From Cucumis sativus (Eukaryota > Streptophyta > Magnoliopsida > Cucurbitales > Cucurbitaceae): a stretch of 64,000 bases of DNA. Below are positions 9,519 through 35,397 of the stretch, piece by piece (positions within the stretch are counted from its first letter, which is position 1; every line of letters starts with the position of its first letter). The DNA is taken from contig NC_026659.2 of NCBI RefSeq assembly GCF_000004075.3, positions 3,162,001 through 3,226,000 on the forward strand, written 5' to 3'. Made by a program: the position numbers and the translations under genes. The notes beneath the pieces are model-generated. The model did not search any database. It was not told the origin of the DNA and was given only the letters and a program-made list of their open reading frames with translations.

Positions 9519-10849
9519 TGGTGGAAATTACAATGGCCTCTACCAACACGTGTAAACCGAATTCTAATACTTCACATTAAACAAACCCTAATTTTGGAAT
9601 TTCCAAAAACATCCAAATTAAAGAGAGAAAAATTGAGCTAGTTCTCCGTTCATCCGACTCAATCCGATCGTGTGTATATATATACATACATTTGCACGTT
9701 GAATAACAATTTGTTCAACTTGTCTATTGAAAAACATATGAAATTTTTTCTAAGTTAATATATTTAAAAATAAAAAACCAACCCACCAATCCTACCCGAC
9801 TTATATACACACTCGTAAGGGTCGAGTTTGTATTTTGAGGATTGGGTTTAATAAAGTTACTAACTATGTTAATTTTTATGTTGTATTTACTTAGTTATTT
9901 AATAATTTAAATATAGATGTAATAAAGGTTTTGTTATTATTGGACCCATCTTTTCTAAATTATTTAGACAATTATTTGACTTTTTTGAGTTTTATGTTTG
10001 ATTTTTGTCACACAGTGGAAAGGGGTTGGGATCACTTTTGAGTAATCACTTTTGTCTTCTTCTTCTTTTCAACCTTTTTTGGCATCTTTATCATATTTAC
10101 TAAACAAATAAAAAGAAATTTTGGAATGGAATGATTTGTTCTCACACGTATGCATTTTAGAAAACTTTTCAAAAGGTCATCGTAATATGTTATAATGTAA
10201 CAAATAGTCATACATTGTTAGATTAGATGGATGAAGAGAAAAAAAAAACCTTTCAAATGTCTATCAATTAATTATAATTAGTGATAAGGTTGATTTTCAA
10301 ATTTGCATCCAATACATACAATGAAAGGTGGCTACATTGTAGTTTGCCATGCCTTGCATGAAAAGTTGAGGTGACTACTATCTAAATTTTACTCAAATAA
10401 AATGGTTTATTATAATTGCTAAGACATAAAAGAATTCCTTTATAATCTCAATTACTAAAGATTTGTTTGATTTGATTTGATCCTACTTATTTTAATTAGG
10501 AAGTCATGTCACAAACCTATGATCATCTTAACTTATAATGGTCTACGCAGACTATTATCTCAGCTTTTGTCAGCGTTATTTTCTTTTATAATGGTTGCTA
10601 TTGGAATTTTATCTTTGGCTTGAGAGGGAGGAGGGGATGAGGAAGAGGAGAAAGGGGAATGAGAACCAGCAGTGGCAGATCCAGAAAATTGATTAACAGA
10701 GGGTTTCGAGTTGTAACTTAGTGAAAAAAAATAAAAATCTAAAAAAAACTACAAAATGGGCTGACAAGCGTAGTTACCACTAAACTACCTACAAATATTA
10801 AATAATAATTGGTTGCTCGACCTATACTAAATCCATCGATGAGAACAAG

Positions 10850-10909
10850 AGTATTATCATAATACTTATAAGATTAGGAAAACCCTAATTCTATTATTAT
10901 GATAATACT
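10850..10909. repeat. 60-nt hairpin with 15-bp perfect arms
   Basis: AGTATTATCATAATA at 10850-10864 is the exact reverse complement of 10895-10909. A second inner pair, ATTAGG and CCTAAT, sits around a short A-rich loop, so the whole segment can fold as a nested stem. It may be a decayed TIR element core. Confidence 0.6.
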
Positions 10910-19130: not shown

Positions 19131-19207
19131 ATGACATGAAAAGAAAGATAATCAGAAGGAGGAAGCCACATAAAAAATCGAGTTGTCCAAAAACAAAGCC
19201 ATTTCAA

Positions 19208-19260
19208 ATGCATGCAATAAGAAGTCTTCAAACACCTGCTTATCCATTTCCTATATATAT
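19208..19260 (+). promoter_or_regulatory. Seed-type core promoter of the oleosin gene: RY motif and TATA box
   Basis: ATGCATGCAA at 19209-19218 contains the RY core CATGCA bound by B3 factors (ABI3/FUS3/LEC2 class). A CACCTG E-box-like site follows at about 19234, then CTATATATAT at 19251-19260, about 56 nt before the ATG. The combination suits seed-maturation expression. Confidence 0.65.
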
Positions 19261-19315
19261 CATCATCAAAACAACTTTCATTCAAATAAAAAAAAAACCC
19301 ACAACCCGAAATTCA

Positions 19316-19747
19316 ATGGCGGAATCACGTAACCCTCAGTACTCCAAATCCCAACAGTTCTCCTCCGGTAACCCTCAATACTCCAAATTCCAACAGTTCT
19401 CCTCCGATCAACTCCCCCGCTCTCACAAAGTCGTCAAGGCCGCCACTGCAGTCACTACCGGCACATCGTTCCTCGTCCTCTCCGCCCTAATAATGGCCGG
19501 TACAGTAATTGGTCTGGCCGTTGTTACCCCATTGTTTGTCATATTCAGCCCGGTTCTTGTGCCTGCACTGATAACGGCCACGCTTTTGATCTTGGGGTTC
19601 TTGGCCTCTGGTGGATTTGGAGCTGCGGCTATCGTTGTGTTGTTGTGGTTTTTCAGGTATATGGGTAATAATGGGAGAAATCGTAGTGGAGATTGGCCGG
19701 AAAAAAGTCGGTTCAAGTTCAACGGCAAGGGGAGAGTGGAAGGCTAA
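19316..19747 (+). CDS. Oleosin (low molecular weight type)
   Basis: Intronless, 143 residues. A hydrophilic N-terminal arm (1-36) is followed by an uncharged hydrophobic stretch of about 70 residues (41-113) with the proline knot [12 protein letters not shown] at 72-83, which fits the P-x5-SP-x3-P rule exactly, then a short polar C-terminal arm. Oleosins coat seed oil bodies: the hydrophobic hairpin enters the triacylglycerol core and the knot makes the turn. The short C-terminal arm without the 18-residue insertion points to the L-type. The start at 19316 (MAESRN) was chosen over an upstream in-frame extension because it follows the TATA box at the normal distance. Odd: the N-terminal arm holds a near-perfect tandem repeat, [13 protein letters not shown] then [13 protein letters not shown]. 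Confidence 0.93.
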
Positions 19748-19871
19748 ATTTGGAGATGAATGAAGTGAACGGATGGATGAGGTAAGTGCATTTTGCAGAA
19801 AGGCAATGGCTGTTGAATGAATTTGTAGTACCTTAAGACTGCCTTCAATGTTTCTTTGATCAATAAAATGT

Positions 19872-20010
19872 AGGTTAATGTTCTTTCATTGGTAGGCTTA
19901 GTCCGTTCATTTGTCTCTTTCAAACCAAATTTTGAGTCACTATTACTTTAAGTTAATGTTCTTTCGCTGTGTTGTTGTGGTTAATGTTCTTTCGTTGTGT
20001 TGTTGTGGTT
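19872..20010 (+). repeat. Three copies of GTTAATGTTCTTTC in the oleosin 3' flank
   Basis: The unit occurs near 19873, 19953 and 19980. The last two are followed by a GYTGTGTTGTTGTGG block, and that block also occurs inside the oleosin reading frame at about 19632-19650 (part of the codons for VVLLWF). The likely polyadenylation signal AATAAA is at 19862-19867. Confidence 0.7.
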
Positions 20011-20207
20011 TGTCAAATGTTCTTAACCCACATGAATTTTGGTACCTTATCTAAATAGATTCTAAGCTATTAGTATGCTTTAGATCCTAGAGTTTAAATT
20101 CTGAACTAATATACATAAAATTTTCAATTCAGTTCACAACACAATGCATATCAAAATAAAATAACAATTCTTATTATAGGCATCCCATTAAAACAAATGA
20201 ACAAAGA

Positions 20208-20312
20208 TGTGATCATCATCAGAAAGGAAATGTAGTTCTCATCCACAGCATGGCTTTACTGTGTAGGAAGGTGTCCTAAGATTATTCCACATTTCATCAT
20301 TTGATGAACACA
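20208..20312 (-). ncRNA. C/D box snoRNA candidate (third of the 20-kb cluster)
   Basis: Minus strand. C box ATGATGA at 20294-20300 and D box CTGA at 20219-20222 are directly flanked by TGTGTTCATCA and TGATGATCACA, which pair at 10 of 11 positions as a terminal stem. Between them lies CACAG/CTGTG, a small internal hairpin of the kind that often bridges D' and C'. Length about 105 nt including the stem. I could not assign a target; the guide before the D box reads ACTACATTTCCTTT. The long terminal stem abutting both boxes makes chance occurrence unlikely. Confidence 0.65.
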
Positions 20313-20390
20313 ACCAAATCAAACAAAGAGCAAAAGAATCAAAGTATTAAATCTGAATTTGAAAGAGTTTAAAAAATTGGGAAATAGAAT

Positions 20391-20490
20391 GGTATACTCA
20401 GATGGCAATGGAGATAATTAGGTTCGATTCTGCCAGCAGAGTCTCCTCAATGGATTTCAGAAGAGGGAGCTTTTTATCCTCATTGTAACC
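20391..20490 (-). ncRNA. C/D box snoRNA candidate (second of the 20-kb cluster)
   Basis: Minus strand. A C-like box ATGAGGA (20477-20483, one change from RUGAUGA) and D box CTGA (20398-20401) are flanked by GGTTAC and GTATACC, which pair with one bulge. An internal CTGA at 20457-20460 can serve as D', leaving GCTCCCTCTT as guide, and ATTGAGGAG may be C'. Target not recognised. Position between two better supported snoRNAs in the same direction supports it. Confidence 0.45.
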
Positions 20491-20586
20491 CTCCGATTTC
20501 CCAAGAGAAACGCTCATTACAAAAGAGTAAAAAAGAAAAAACAGATTTTATTGGAAGATAAAATGGAAACAAAAAAGAGAGAGGAA

Positions 20587-20681
20587 GGGCTCAGTTTCGA
20601 AAGTAATCGACACGCAAGATTCGAAAAGAATCCTGCATTCCGGTCTGTTGAGCTTGATCTTTCATGAAATCATCAAAGCCA
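20587..20681 (-). ncRNA. C/D box snoRNA with guide to 25S rRNA domain V (first of the 20-kb cluster)
   Basis: Minus strand. C box TTGATGA (20670-20676), D box CTGA (20591-20594) and a short closing stem GGC/GCC. Just after the C box lies TCAAGCTCAACAG, a perfect 13-nt antisense (20645-20657) to CTGTTGAGCTTGA, a universally conserved stretch of eukaryotic large-subunit rRNA (GACCCUGUUGAGCUUGACUCUAG). The D' box is not canonical (CAGA or CGGA follows), so the exact methylated base is left open. The guide box and a second block (TTGCRTGTCGAYTAC on this strand) recur in the snoRNA at 35.15-35.26 kb. The match to rRNA is from memory of the rRNA sequence. Confidence 0.75.
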
Positions 20682-20942
20682 CTTGTTGTATGTACATAAA
20701 ACCAACCAAGGAAAATCCAAAGAAAGAAGATAAAAAAACTTGAAAACCTCACAGAAGAAGGAAAAACAAAAATGATTTGAAACAGTGAACATGGAAATTG
20801 TTAGTGAAATTGAGTAGCAGTAAAAACGAAGAACCTCAGGAAAAGAAGGAAGATGGGGAAGGACAAAGAAGCCTGTGCAGCCGCAAACACGAAGAAGAAA
20901 GAGTCGTAGTTGATGAGGGTAAAACCTGGGGAGGGTTCAAGG

Positions 20943-21010
20943 GTTTAAATAAGGGGAAGAAGGAATTAGGGTTATTGTTTCCGCCGCTCCAATTTGGGAT
21001 TCAAAGCCCA
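20943..21010 (-). promoter_or_regulatory. snoRNA-type Pol II promoter: site II, telo-box, TATA
   Basis: Reading the minus strand: TGGGCT (site II core, 21005-21010), AACCCTAA (telo-box, 20966-20973) and TTATTTAAAC (TATA, 20943-20952). Site II plus telo-box is the signature of plant ribosomal-protein and snoRNA cluster promoters, recognised by TCP and telo-box factors. The first snoRNA begins about 260 nt downstream of the TATA. Confidence 0.7.
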
Positions 21011-21028
21011 ACCCAATTCGATTTCTAA

Positions 21029-22032
21029 AACATCCGCCTCAAACAAATTTATTCCTTTTCTTTTTCGATTAACAAATAACAATTTTCTTTTTAAATTTGA
21101 AATTCTCACAATTTACTTCCACTTATTATTTTAGAAAACAAAATTATAAAAAATTAAACATTTACGTCCAAAAATTAGTTTATGAATTTTTCTATTTTGA
21201 AAAAAAATTATAAAGTATAGATATTAAATTTTTACTTATTAAATGTGAATTTTGTTAAAAAAATTATAGAGAAAAAATATTTTTTTATTAATAATAAATA
21301 TTTTGTAAAATATTTTATTTTTTACAAATTGTCTTAAAAAAATATAGAATTTAAACGTGAATTCATATGTGTTCTTTGTTACGAACATATGTAACAAGAA
21401 ACAATCAATTTTTCGGAACGATGTCATAAAAAATAAATAATTTTTGTCATATCAACTTGTTGATTTAATTGCCGAATCATTTTATCGTTAATCAACTAAA
21501 CGGTTCAAGTAACTTTAGAAATCATTTAGAACTATTTCTCAAATCTCGGAGACGATAGTGTTTATTTTCAAACTTCAAATACCAAATAGACATCAATTTC
21601 AAGAATAAAAAATGGATTTTGCCCTAAATAATATCAATATTCTAACCTCTGTGAAATAGTAATAACCGTTATTAAGGTTCATTCGGGAATGTTTTGGTCA
21701 TTTAAATTAAGTTTGTGTTTTTTAAAAAAAAATGTTCGAAATAAAAATACGAAAACATTAATTATTGATATGTACTCGTAAAAGTTAAAGTTCTGATTTT
21801 TGTGGAGAGTGTTTATGATTGATGACTTATTTCTCACGAAATATAATTTATAACTTTTTGTTTACGTCATATCCTATTGTCTCGTTTTGGTTACCCTATC
21901 GTATTATATCTCCGAATGTGATGCACGATCTTTTAATATGGTTCTAGATTTGTTATTATTTTGTTTGTTAGAATTTCATACAAAGTTACAATAAAATAAA
22001 ATGAAAACTTGAATGTTACATACATATGTATA
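21029..22032. other. AT-rich spacer, nothing recognised
   Basis: No conserved open frame, RNA gene or repeat with defined ends was seen here; it contains the 3' flank of the phytocyanin gene. Confidence 0.5.
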
Positions 22033-22699
22033 TTAAATAACGATAAAGGATAGTGTGGATATAACATAGCACACAAAGAGAAAAGCAAGACCTTGGTTTC
22101 CTCCGATCACAACTCCCGCGGCAGCGCTGGGAACACTGTTGTTGTCAGTTTTGGAAGAAGGTCGGGGGAGGGCATCGGACTGGGACGACGGTGGCTGAGG
22201 AGCAGCAGCAGGAGAGAAGGATTGGTTGTTTTCGACATTGACTTGCAACTTCATGCCACCGAGACAGAGCAACCTGTTGCCGGAAACAAAGAACCTGTGG
22301 CCGGGCTCGGACAAGGTGACGGTGGTGTTGCCAGAGGAGTAGGCTTTAAGAACATTGGTAGTGTTGCAACTGTTGAAATTTTCTCTAGTCACTTCGTTTA
22401 AGCTTGCCAATGAAGAGTATTGAAACACTGCATGTTGTATGGAGATCAGACGTCATATAAATGAATTTAGATCATATTATATTGGATATAATTATAAGAT
22501 CGATATATATATATATATAGTTACCAAGAACATCTCCAACAAAAAACCTCTTGCCCTGAGACCAAGTATCAAGATCAGTGCTGATATCCCAACCAGAAGT
22601 ATCTCCTACAATATATGTTGTAGCATTGCATCTTATGAATGCAAATCCAAATATCACCACTAACACACAAACCCAAATATTATTATTGTTTCCCATCAT
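22033..22699 (-). CDS. Phytocyanin / early-nodulin-like protein, GPI-anchor type
   Basis: Two exons, 22699-22525 and 22427-22033, joined in phase 1 to give 189 residues. Residues 1-26 are a signal peptide, then a plastocyanin-like domain (TTYIVGDTSGWDI, TWSQGKRFFVGDVLVFQYSS, FNSCNTTNVL, GHRFFVSGN, GGMKLQV), a Pro/Ser/Ala-rich arabinogalactan-like linker and a hydrophobic tail expected to be exchanged for a GPI anchor. The intron falls in the VGDVLV motif, the usual place in this family. Two of the expected copper ligands are missing: the first His is absent from YSSLASLNEV, and the GHC loop is RLLCLGG. It is therefore closer to ENODL proteins, which do not bind copper, than to stellacyanin. 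Likely at the outer plasma-membrane face. A TATATATATA run at about 22753-22770 is the probable TATA region. Confidence 0.88.
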
Positions 22700-26165: not shown

Positions 26166-27629
26166 CATCAAGCGGCCCGTCGCTAAACGTCAGCAACCCC
26201 CTCTCCCGCTCCCGCCCCTTTCCTCCATTTTCTTCAATGGTTACAATTCCTTTTCCGCAACTTTCTTCTTTTTCCATCTATTTTGGCCTCAATGATCTTT
26301 CTTCTTGTGAGTTTCTTCTCATTTTCTGTTCGTTTTCATGATTTCCGTTTCGTTTCGTATGATTTACTTTTTAATTTTCATTCGCAACGTTGTTTATACG
26401 AATGTGTATGTAGATGAGGATGAAGCAAATACCATTAATCCAACACTTGATCTGAGATAATCTATTCGTTTATCTTTTGATGTTATGTGTAGCTTCTGAA
26501 TCTACTCCTTCTCCTATCCATTTCTTTTTTAAATGCTCAAATCTCGATCTCTTGTTTTTATTTTACACGATTTTCTCTCTTGGTTTTTTTCAAACTGAAA
26601 GTTAGTTTTATTTAGAACTTTTGTTTTGAGTACAATGTGTTTTCATTGGAGGGCTGTTTTTGCCAATCCTGGATACGAATCGATTAGTTTTTGGGTTTAA
26701 GAGGGAACAGTGAATTGCCATGATTCTCCAGCAATTTGGAATTCCGTACCACCAAAAGACCAATCAAAATTAATCTCTTTTCTCTAATTTGACAACAACT
26801 ACTCCAAACAGAATGAAAACTATAGAGAAGAGCCTTGAGAGGGAATGAGGAATGAGTCGTTCGTTATATGATTCTTGATGTAAGAAAAGAAGCCAAGCCA
26901 TCTCCAATGGATCATCGAGATTTTAATCACGAGTTAACAACTGGACAAATCTAAACCGTAAACATTAGTGAATTCATTGATGTTGATTTCATTATATATA
27001 AAACTAGATTGATGTAAGATAGCAATAAATGGTCGATAAAATAAGTTACCCAATAGTAATTGAGTATTAAGTTCGGGTTATTCTAAATCTCCTTCATATT
27101 TTTCGTTTTGTTTACATCGAAATCATGGAAATGACAAACAAACTCTGAGAAGTTCTTTGGGTCCTCAAATTGCCTAAACAAGCTTGCTTAAACATCCTTT
27201 TTTGTGAGATATTGACACGAACCTTTGAACTTGAAACCATAATAGACAATCAAAGAATGACAATTCAAGTTATTTCCTAATAAGAAAAATGGTAAACCAA
27301 TTTTGATCAGCTCTAGCACATCGAAACAGCGGATGCTCGGTTGGTTACCAAATCAGTATGAGATTAACTTACGGAAAAGTTCAATTGTTAACATTGTACT
27401 TGGGTGAAGTGGATTTGATTATTTCAATTTGGGAACTTGAGTGTTTTGTTCTAGAGTCTTTGATTTGTTATGGCCAGGTTATATTAGTAGTAATTTGCCA
27501 CTCTTGTATAGGGTTTGAGCTTTTTGATGATCAAATTATCAGTTGGATTCTCATTACTTTTCATTAGTTGGTACCTGAGTTGAGTTTATTCTAAACCTTG
27601 AGTACTTGGCATGTAGTTTATCAGACAAT

Positions 27630-34990: not shown

Positions 34991-35002
34991 TGAAAGCAGA
35001 TT

Positions 35003-35082
35003 CAGGCCTCAGACAGAGTGTTCTCAGTCATAAAATTATCAGACAATGTAGGCAAATCAAAATATCAATCATCACCGGCCTG
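35003..35082 (-). ncRNA. C/D box snoRNA predicted to guide a 25S rRNA uridine
   Basis: Minus strand, 80 nt. Terminal stem CAGGCC/GGCCTG, C box GTGATGA (35069-35075), D' box CTGA (35039-35042), a C'-like ATGACTGA and D box CTGA (35009-35012). The guide before D', TTGCCTACATTGT, is a perfect 13-nt antisense to ACAATGTAGGCAA, which I know from plant 25S rRNA (AATGTAGGCAAGGGAAGTCGGC). By the D+5 rule the target would be the U in ACAAUGUAGG. All required boxes, the guide spacing and the stem are present. A worn copy lies at 37.08-37.18 kb. Confidence 0.82.
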
Positions 35083-35145
35083 ATTCAGCAAAAATAAATA
35101 GAAATGAAAACAAACAGAATGGAGAAAAATGGCGAGTGAAGAGAT

Positions 35146-35258
35146 GGCTCAGTTCAGCGGGGTAGTCGACATGCAAAGACGTTTCACTCATTCAAGGAAG
35201 AAAGAGGAAATTACTCTGCAATCCGGTCTGTTGAGCTTGAATTTTACTGAGTCGTCAC
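35146..35258 (-). ncRNA. snoRNA paralogue carrying the 25S domain V guide
   Basis: Minus strand, just downstream of the promoter and 64 nt upstream of the next snoRNA. It keeps TCAAGCTCAACAGACCGGA (guide to CTGTTGAGCTTGA at 35228-35240), the block TTGCATGTCGACTAC and the end AACTGAGCC, all shared with the snoRNA at 20.6 kb. The C box would be GTGACGA (35252-35258), one change from consensus, and the closing stem is only AGAT/ATCT with mismatches inside. It may be functional or beginning to decay. Confidence 0.55.
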
Positions 35259-35371
35259 GGCGATCTACTTCACTCGCTAGAAAATACAAAATGAAAAGCA
35301 TAAAGGAAGAAGAAGAAGAGGATTGGAAGAGAAAAGAGTTTGAGGAATGAAGGCTGTGTGTGATTGATTAG

Positions 35372-35397
35372 TTATATAGTGGAGGAGATTAGGGTTT
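35372..35397 (-). promoter_or_regulatory. Telo-box and TATA of the 35-kb snoRNA gene
   Basis: Minus strand: AAACCCTAA (35389-35397), then CTCCTCCA and CTATATAA (35372-35379). The first snoRNA box begins about 115 nt downstream. No site II core was seen within the next 80 nt upstream. Confidence 0.65.

Follow-up and report, generated by a model that had tools for sequence, protein, structure and literature searches.

The 64,000-nucleotide stretch of DNA analysed here (the window) carries, on its minus strand, what we take with about 90% probability to be a conventional plant nuclear gene in which three box C/D snoRNAs form one polycistronic unit. The identification comes from covariance matches to three plant snoRNA families, read together with their order and orientation, the promoter motifs upstream of them and the pairing of two of the guide regions with ribosomal RNA.

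Three box C/D family matches on one strand

Rfam was run twice, over the whole 64 kb window at gathering scores and over 19800-21400 (1.6 kb) with E-values listed. Three plant C/D family matches were found in one orientation within a span of 472 bp. RNA 1 (20585-20683, minus strand) is a Z107/R87-like box C/D RNA whose match to RF00360 (E 6e-8) reaches 45.2 bits where the family's gathering score is 50. RNA 2 (20394-20493, minus strand) is snoR30/Z108, matching RF00046 with 62 bits against a gathering score of 60 (E 5.4e-13), and RNA 3 (20212-20308, minus strand) is snoR31/Z110/Z27, matching RF00353 with 55.2 bits against 45 (E 3.3e-7). Over the full 64 kb, five matches reached their gathering scores, and 20208-21010 contains two of these; of the three RNAs, RNAs 2 and 3 pass and RNA 1 stays below, at 45.2 versus 50. 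The table for 19800-21400 held 14 matches, and the 11 besides RNAs 1-3 were at chance level (E at least 0.32). Since the E-values of RNAs 2, 3 and 1 were 5e-13, 3e-7 and 6e-8, respectively, a chance origin of the three matches is very unlikely. A preliminary description of this DNA had proposed three minus-strand C/D candidates in the same order and suggested a covariance search; all three now match Rfam C/D families, RNAs 2 and 3 above gathering and RNA 1 below it, with ends that deviate by 2 to 4 nt from those proposed.

The boxes were located on the minus strand for each RNA. RNA 1 has the C box TGATGA at 20675-20670, the D box CTGA at 20594-20591 and, read by eye, a terminal stem of 3 bp (GGC/GCC). 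RNA 3 has the C box ATGATGA at 20300-20294, the D box CTGA at 20222-20219 and a stem of 6 bp. In RNA 2 the C box, ATGAGGA at 20483-20477, is degenerate in a way that the RF00046 family consensus shares. This RNA has the D box CTGA at 20401-20398 and a D' box CTGA at 20460-20457; it has no good terminal stem, yet it has the highest Rfam score of the three. The earlier statement that two of the three RNAs have good boxes and stems was about right, in that RNAs 1 and 3 have canonical boxes and RNA 3 a 6-bp stem, but the stem of RNA 1 reaches only 3 bp. When the window was scanned strictly, with RTGAYGA, CTGA and 4 bp or more of stem all required, four places were returned, all of them on the minus strand, and RNA 3 was the only member of this cluster among them. 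Because the scan recovers just one of the three, box reading alone is insufficient as proof of RNAs 1-3. The places 37174-37086 and 34900-34776 on the minus strand are C/D-like, with stems of 5 bp and 4 bp, and have no Rfam match at gathering score.

The folding energy relative to shuffled sequences gave a z value of -4.17 for RNA 3, -2.22 for RNA 1 and -0.24 for RNA 2, which was not separated from its shuffles. Stable folding is not required of C/D snoRNAs, and for this reason the folding energies were not taken as a test. The region also holds no protein frame, as had been proposed: the longest ATG frame overlapping 20150-20930 on either strand is 39 aa. No tRNA was found anywhere in the 64 kb window by ARAGORN in its bacterial setting, which an intron-bearing tRNA could escape, and the Rfam listing for the window likewise holds no tRNA match. 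A dicistronic tRNA-snoRNA gene of the RNA polymerase III type was rejected on these two results.

Guide regions and their predicted rRNA targets

The guide regions were paired with eukaryotic large subunit (LSU) rRNA (RF02543) obtained by pattern scans, which gave two records from bacterial genome contigs (L001, 1-3101; L002, 1-1750) and a third fragment from viral contigs (L003, 10860-11223). As a control, each pairing score was compared with the maximum of 20 letter shuffles for that guide and LSU record. Two contigs deposited as bacterial MAGs (JABSRU010000113.1 and BQJP01000067.1) and one viral contig contain this eukaryotic LSU rRNA, and L002 terminates in TTTGGGG repeats that resemble protist telomeres.

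The D' guide of RNA 3 (20282-20269, minus strand) pairs over 14 nt with AGGTGTCCTAAGGT at 660-673 of L002, with 13 Watson-Crick pairs and one G-U pair. Its score of 20.6 is above all 20 letter shuffles (maximum 19.4). L001 differs by one base at this site, which scored 15.9 there, under a shuffle maximum of 20.8 and also under the 18.0 of a different place in the record; L003 does not contain the target site. In Arabidopsis, the methylated 25S bases include G2620, A2641, U2651 and G2652 (PMC8053127). The spacing of these four allowed one placement only within 60 nt at the RNA 3 site, and did so in each of the two LSU records with that site. In that placement U2651 and G2652 are positions 5 and 6 from the D' box, if this box is the degenerate CCTA at 20267-20264, which we assumed. 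SnoR10 is assigned to 25S U2651 and G2652, and blocking SnoR10.1 reduces methylation at both of its targets, the canonical one and the non-canonical one, which lie at positions 5 and 6 from box D' (PMC8053127). Because its D' guide pairing and the methylation spacing match U2651/G2652 at these positions, RNA 3 is most likely SnoR10-like in function, regardless of its Rfam name.

For RNA 2, the D' guide GCTCCCTCTT (20470-20461, minus strand) adjoins the D' CTGA. No LSU pairing above the shuffle maxima was found for this RNA in L001, L002 or L003, and plasmid records gave no match to the snoR30 stretch. In Arabidopsis snoR30 is assigned to 18S G392 (PMC8053127), which is Gm390 in an older numbering (PMC3511168). 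The text of PMC8053127 also ties SnoR30 to 25S U803, where the table of the same paper has SnoR14. The predicted pairing of snoR30 with 18S rRNA is taken from the published assignment.

RNA 1 has retained its D' guide region (20657-20645, minus strand; TCAAGCTCAACAG) and, compared with the RF00360 consensus, has lost the family D guide CCCGCUGAA. The D' region pairs over 13 nt with CTGTTGAGCTTGA in L001, L002 and L003 with a score of 20.4, which exceeds the shuffle maximum in two of the three records only (21.8 in L001, 18.9 in L002 and 15.4 in L003). A target for the D guide of RNA 1 was absent among the best three pairings in each of the three LSU records. The spacing of Arabidopsis A2322, A2327 and C2338 fits two or three places near the R87 site.

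An intact second copy of R87 (RF00360, 87 bits) lies at 35143-35265 on the minus strand, followed downstream on the same strand by U34 (RF00147) at 35002-35083, with 46.1 bits against a gathering score of 38. Upstream of this second cluster (35002-35265, minus strand) there is a putative promoter at about 35372-35397 with the telo-box AAACCCTAA and TATATAA; no site II was found within 1 kb. The D guide of the second R87, CCCCGCTGA, can pair over 9 nt with TCAGCGGGG in L002, beginning 19 nt before the D' target. The score was 16.4 versus a shuffle maximum of 16.5 in L002; the pairing was 7 nt in L003 and fell outside the best three in L001. The D' guide of U34 abuts a CTGA and pairs with ATAATGTAGGTAAG in L001 with a score of 16.2, below the shuffle maximum of 19.2; U34 is assigned to 25S U1892 (PMC8053127).

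When 19800-21200, flanks included, was compared with the window by blastn, the two R87 copies proved identical at 24 of the 25 bases in a block around the D' guide, and there was no other match between the two clusters at E up to 0.01. A recent segmental duplication between the clusters at 20 kb and 35 kb was rejected since blastn returned the 25-base block only. The canonical boxes of RNA 1 and the 24/25 block amid otherwise unmatched clusters suggest that the D' half has a retained function, and RNA 1 is likely an old duplicate in which this half is still kept. We also considered that RNA 1 may be an R87 paralogue whose D' guide is under selection and whose D guide has been replaced (CGATTACTTTCGAAA before CTGA) and aimed at another RNA. 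This we regard as unlikely; if true, the cluster would carry a re-aimed snoRNA with another second target.

The same features bear on the possibility that the cluster is partly decayed, with RNA 1 a degenerate R87 copy and the whole unit weakly expressed or silent. RNA 1 scores 45.2 bits versus 50, its conserved D guide is gone and an intact R87 of 87 bits is present 14 kb away at 35143-35265, all of which speaks for this reading. However, RNAs 2 and 3 are above their family thresholds, and RNA 1 has kept canonical C and D boxes as well as the 24/25-base D' block. We consider decay of the unit highly doubtful.

Promoter motifs and the proposed transcription unit

The motifs that the preliminary description had placed upstream on the minus strand, TGGGCT, AACCCTAA and TTATTTAAAC, were all located (21010-21005, 20973-20966 and about 20952-20943, respectively). 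TGGGCT at 21005-21010 (minus strand) is a site II element according to the TGGGCY definition (PMC4660826), and AACCCTAA at 20966-20973 (minus strand) is a telo-box permutation listed in PMC4660826 and PMC3022908. A second telo-box permutation, TAAACCCT, is found at 20940-20947 (minus strand), where it overlaps a weak TATA-like box, TATTTAAA, at 20944-20951 (minus strand). None of the eight hexamers in the published TATA list (PMC4660826) occurs within TATTTAAA; those hexamers served there as a search pattern and not as a strict requirement. Transcription would start about 25-35 nt downstream of the TATA-like box, near 20915.

The frequency of such motifs was examined with a count anchored on the first snoRNA, which had itself been identified independently of them. 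The site II element is 322 nt and the telo-boxes are 257 and 283 nt upstream of RNA 1. Among 127,300 choices of position and strand in the window, 0.85% resemble this cluster in having both a site II element and a telo-box in the 350 nt upstream; the share rises to 1.4% when 500 nt are allowed and to 5.9% with 1000 nt. Site II matches number 22 in the window, and telo-box permutation matches 25 when overlapping ones are counted separately. A telo-box and a site II element no more than 150 nt apart occur at two places in the window, this cluster and 10757-10888. When the window was shuffled with dinucleotides preserved, at least one pair within 150 nt was present in 37 of 60 shuffles, so the promoter motifs prove nothing on their own. 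The other pair, at 10757-10888 on the plus strand, has no Rfam match at gathering score nearby.

The position of these motifs is relevant to the question of whether the snoRNAs, though real, are released from a longer host transcript, in which they would lie in an intron or an untranslated exon, and have no dedicated gene. In rice, snoRNA clusters often lie in introns, and in maize they are frequent in untranslated regions (PMC3022908 and PMC6172812). Against such a host, the site II/telo-box block is directly upstream of the unit and no ATG frame longer than 39 aa lies over it. The neighboring oleosin frame at 19136-19747 cannot be the host because it is on the plus strand and convergent. A plastocyanin-like frame at 22033-22428 (minus strand) lies upstream of the promoter motifs. 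Processing from a host transcript is in our judgment very improbable. The unit could also produce a long lncRNA that retains its snoRNAs and serves some purpose other than rRNA methylation; Arabidopsis lncCOBRA1, with the same promoter type and two snoRNA domains, is an example of such an RNA (PMC9175010). Nothing in the sequence points to this, known rRNA targets agree with the families and guides, and we give the possibility almost no weight.

We favor a dedicated polycistronic snoRNA gene that would be expressed as follows. RNA polymerase II would start near 20915 from the site II/telo-box promoter and produce a single non-coding minus-strand precursor carrying the R87-like, snoR30 and snoR31/Z110/Z27 (SnoR10-type) RNAs. 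The spacers would be removed, and the C/D core proteins would associate with each RNA, as would fibrillarin. The snoR30 RNA would then direct 2'-O-methylation of 18S G392 and the third RNA that of 25S U2651 and G2652, while the R87-like RNA would pair with the 25S segment CUGUUGAGCUUGA. This analysis itself provides the families, their order and orientation, the promoter motifs and, for two of the RNAs, a pairing with eukaryotic LSU rRNA. The targets, the existence of RNA polymerase II clusters and TeloSII promoters are taken from published work (PMC8053127, PMC4660826 and PMC3022908); transcription, a single precursor, its processing and the start site are what we infer from these together. 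The original proposal that the region has the architecture of a plant RNA polymerase II snoRNA cluster is supported by the families, order, orientation and promoter motifs.

Comparison with known snoRNA genes

The cluster is of an ordinary type; it adds no new kind of gene and leaves the existing picture of plant snoRNA genes unchanged. The case confirms that raw sequence allows a plant snoRNA gene to be recognized by its promoter and boxes. It also allows likely targets to be named, namely 18S G392, 25S U2651/G2652 and the 25S segment common to the R87 copies. For annotation the gain would be three guide RNAs, or six within 15 kb when the loci at 35002-35265 and 26411-26505 are counted. Z107, Z108 and Z110 are presumably rice snoRNA names, and these names alone hint at an equivalent rice cluster. 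In the accessible text of the literature searched, a set apart from the original rice and Arabidopsis cluster papers, no cluster composed exactly of R87-snoR30-snoR31/Z110 is stated.

A lone snoR31 (RF01288, 66.9 bits) is present at 26411-26505 on the plus strand, with TATAAATA about 250 nt upstream; within 1 kb, neither a site II element nor a telo-box was found. RF00353 and RF01288 are distinct Rfam families that are both named snoR31, and the copy in the cluster has the guide of SnoR10. The double name is a naming trap for annotators. The Arabidopsis targets of SnoR31 are 25S A2912 and U2 snRNA A31 (PMC8053127), which would apply to the lone RF01288 copy if it is the SnoR31 of that paper, a link made by name only.

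Each of the three RNAs can be compared with a known family. RNA 1 resembles Z107/R87 (RF00360) in sharing the D' guide block with the intact copy at 35143-35265, but differs from it in having no D guide and a sub-threshold score. RNA 2 resembles AtsnoR30, which is listed with RF00046 and has HBII-429 as its human counterpart (PMC3511168), in its family match of 62 bits and in the guide GCTCCCTCTT beside CTGA. RNA 3 resembles AtsnoR10, listed with RF00353 (PMC3511168), in its family match of 55.2 bits and in a D' guide that crosses the validated tandem target site of SnoR10; it differs in that the name snoR31 is also borne by RF01288, with its separate copy at 26411-26505. A telo-box/site II association is reported for 16 of 17 intergenic snoRNA clusters in Arabidopsis but for only 19 of 42 in rice (PMC3022908, table 3). 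As a whole, the unit resembles the intergenic TeloSII C/D clusters described for these two plants (PMC3022908 and PMC4660826) in its promoter elements, the shared orientation and closeness of its RNAs and the lack of a protein frame.
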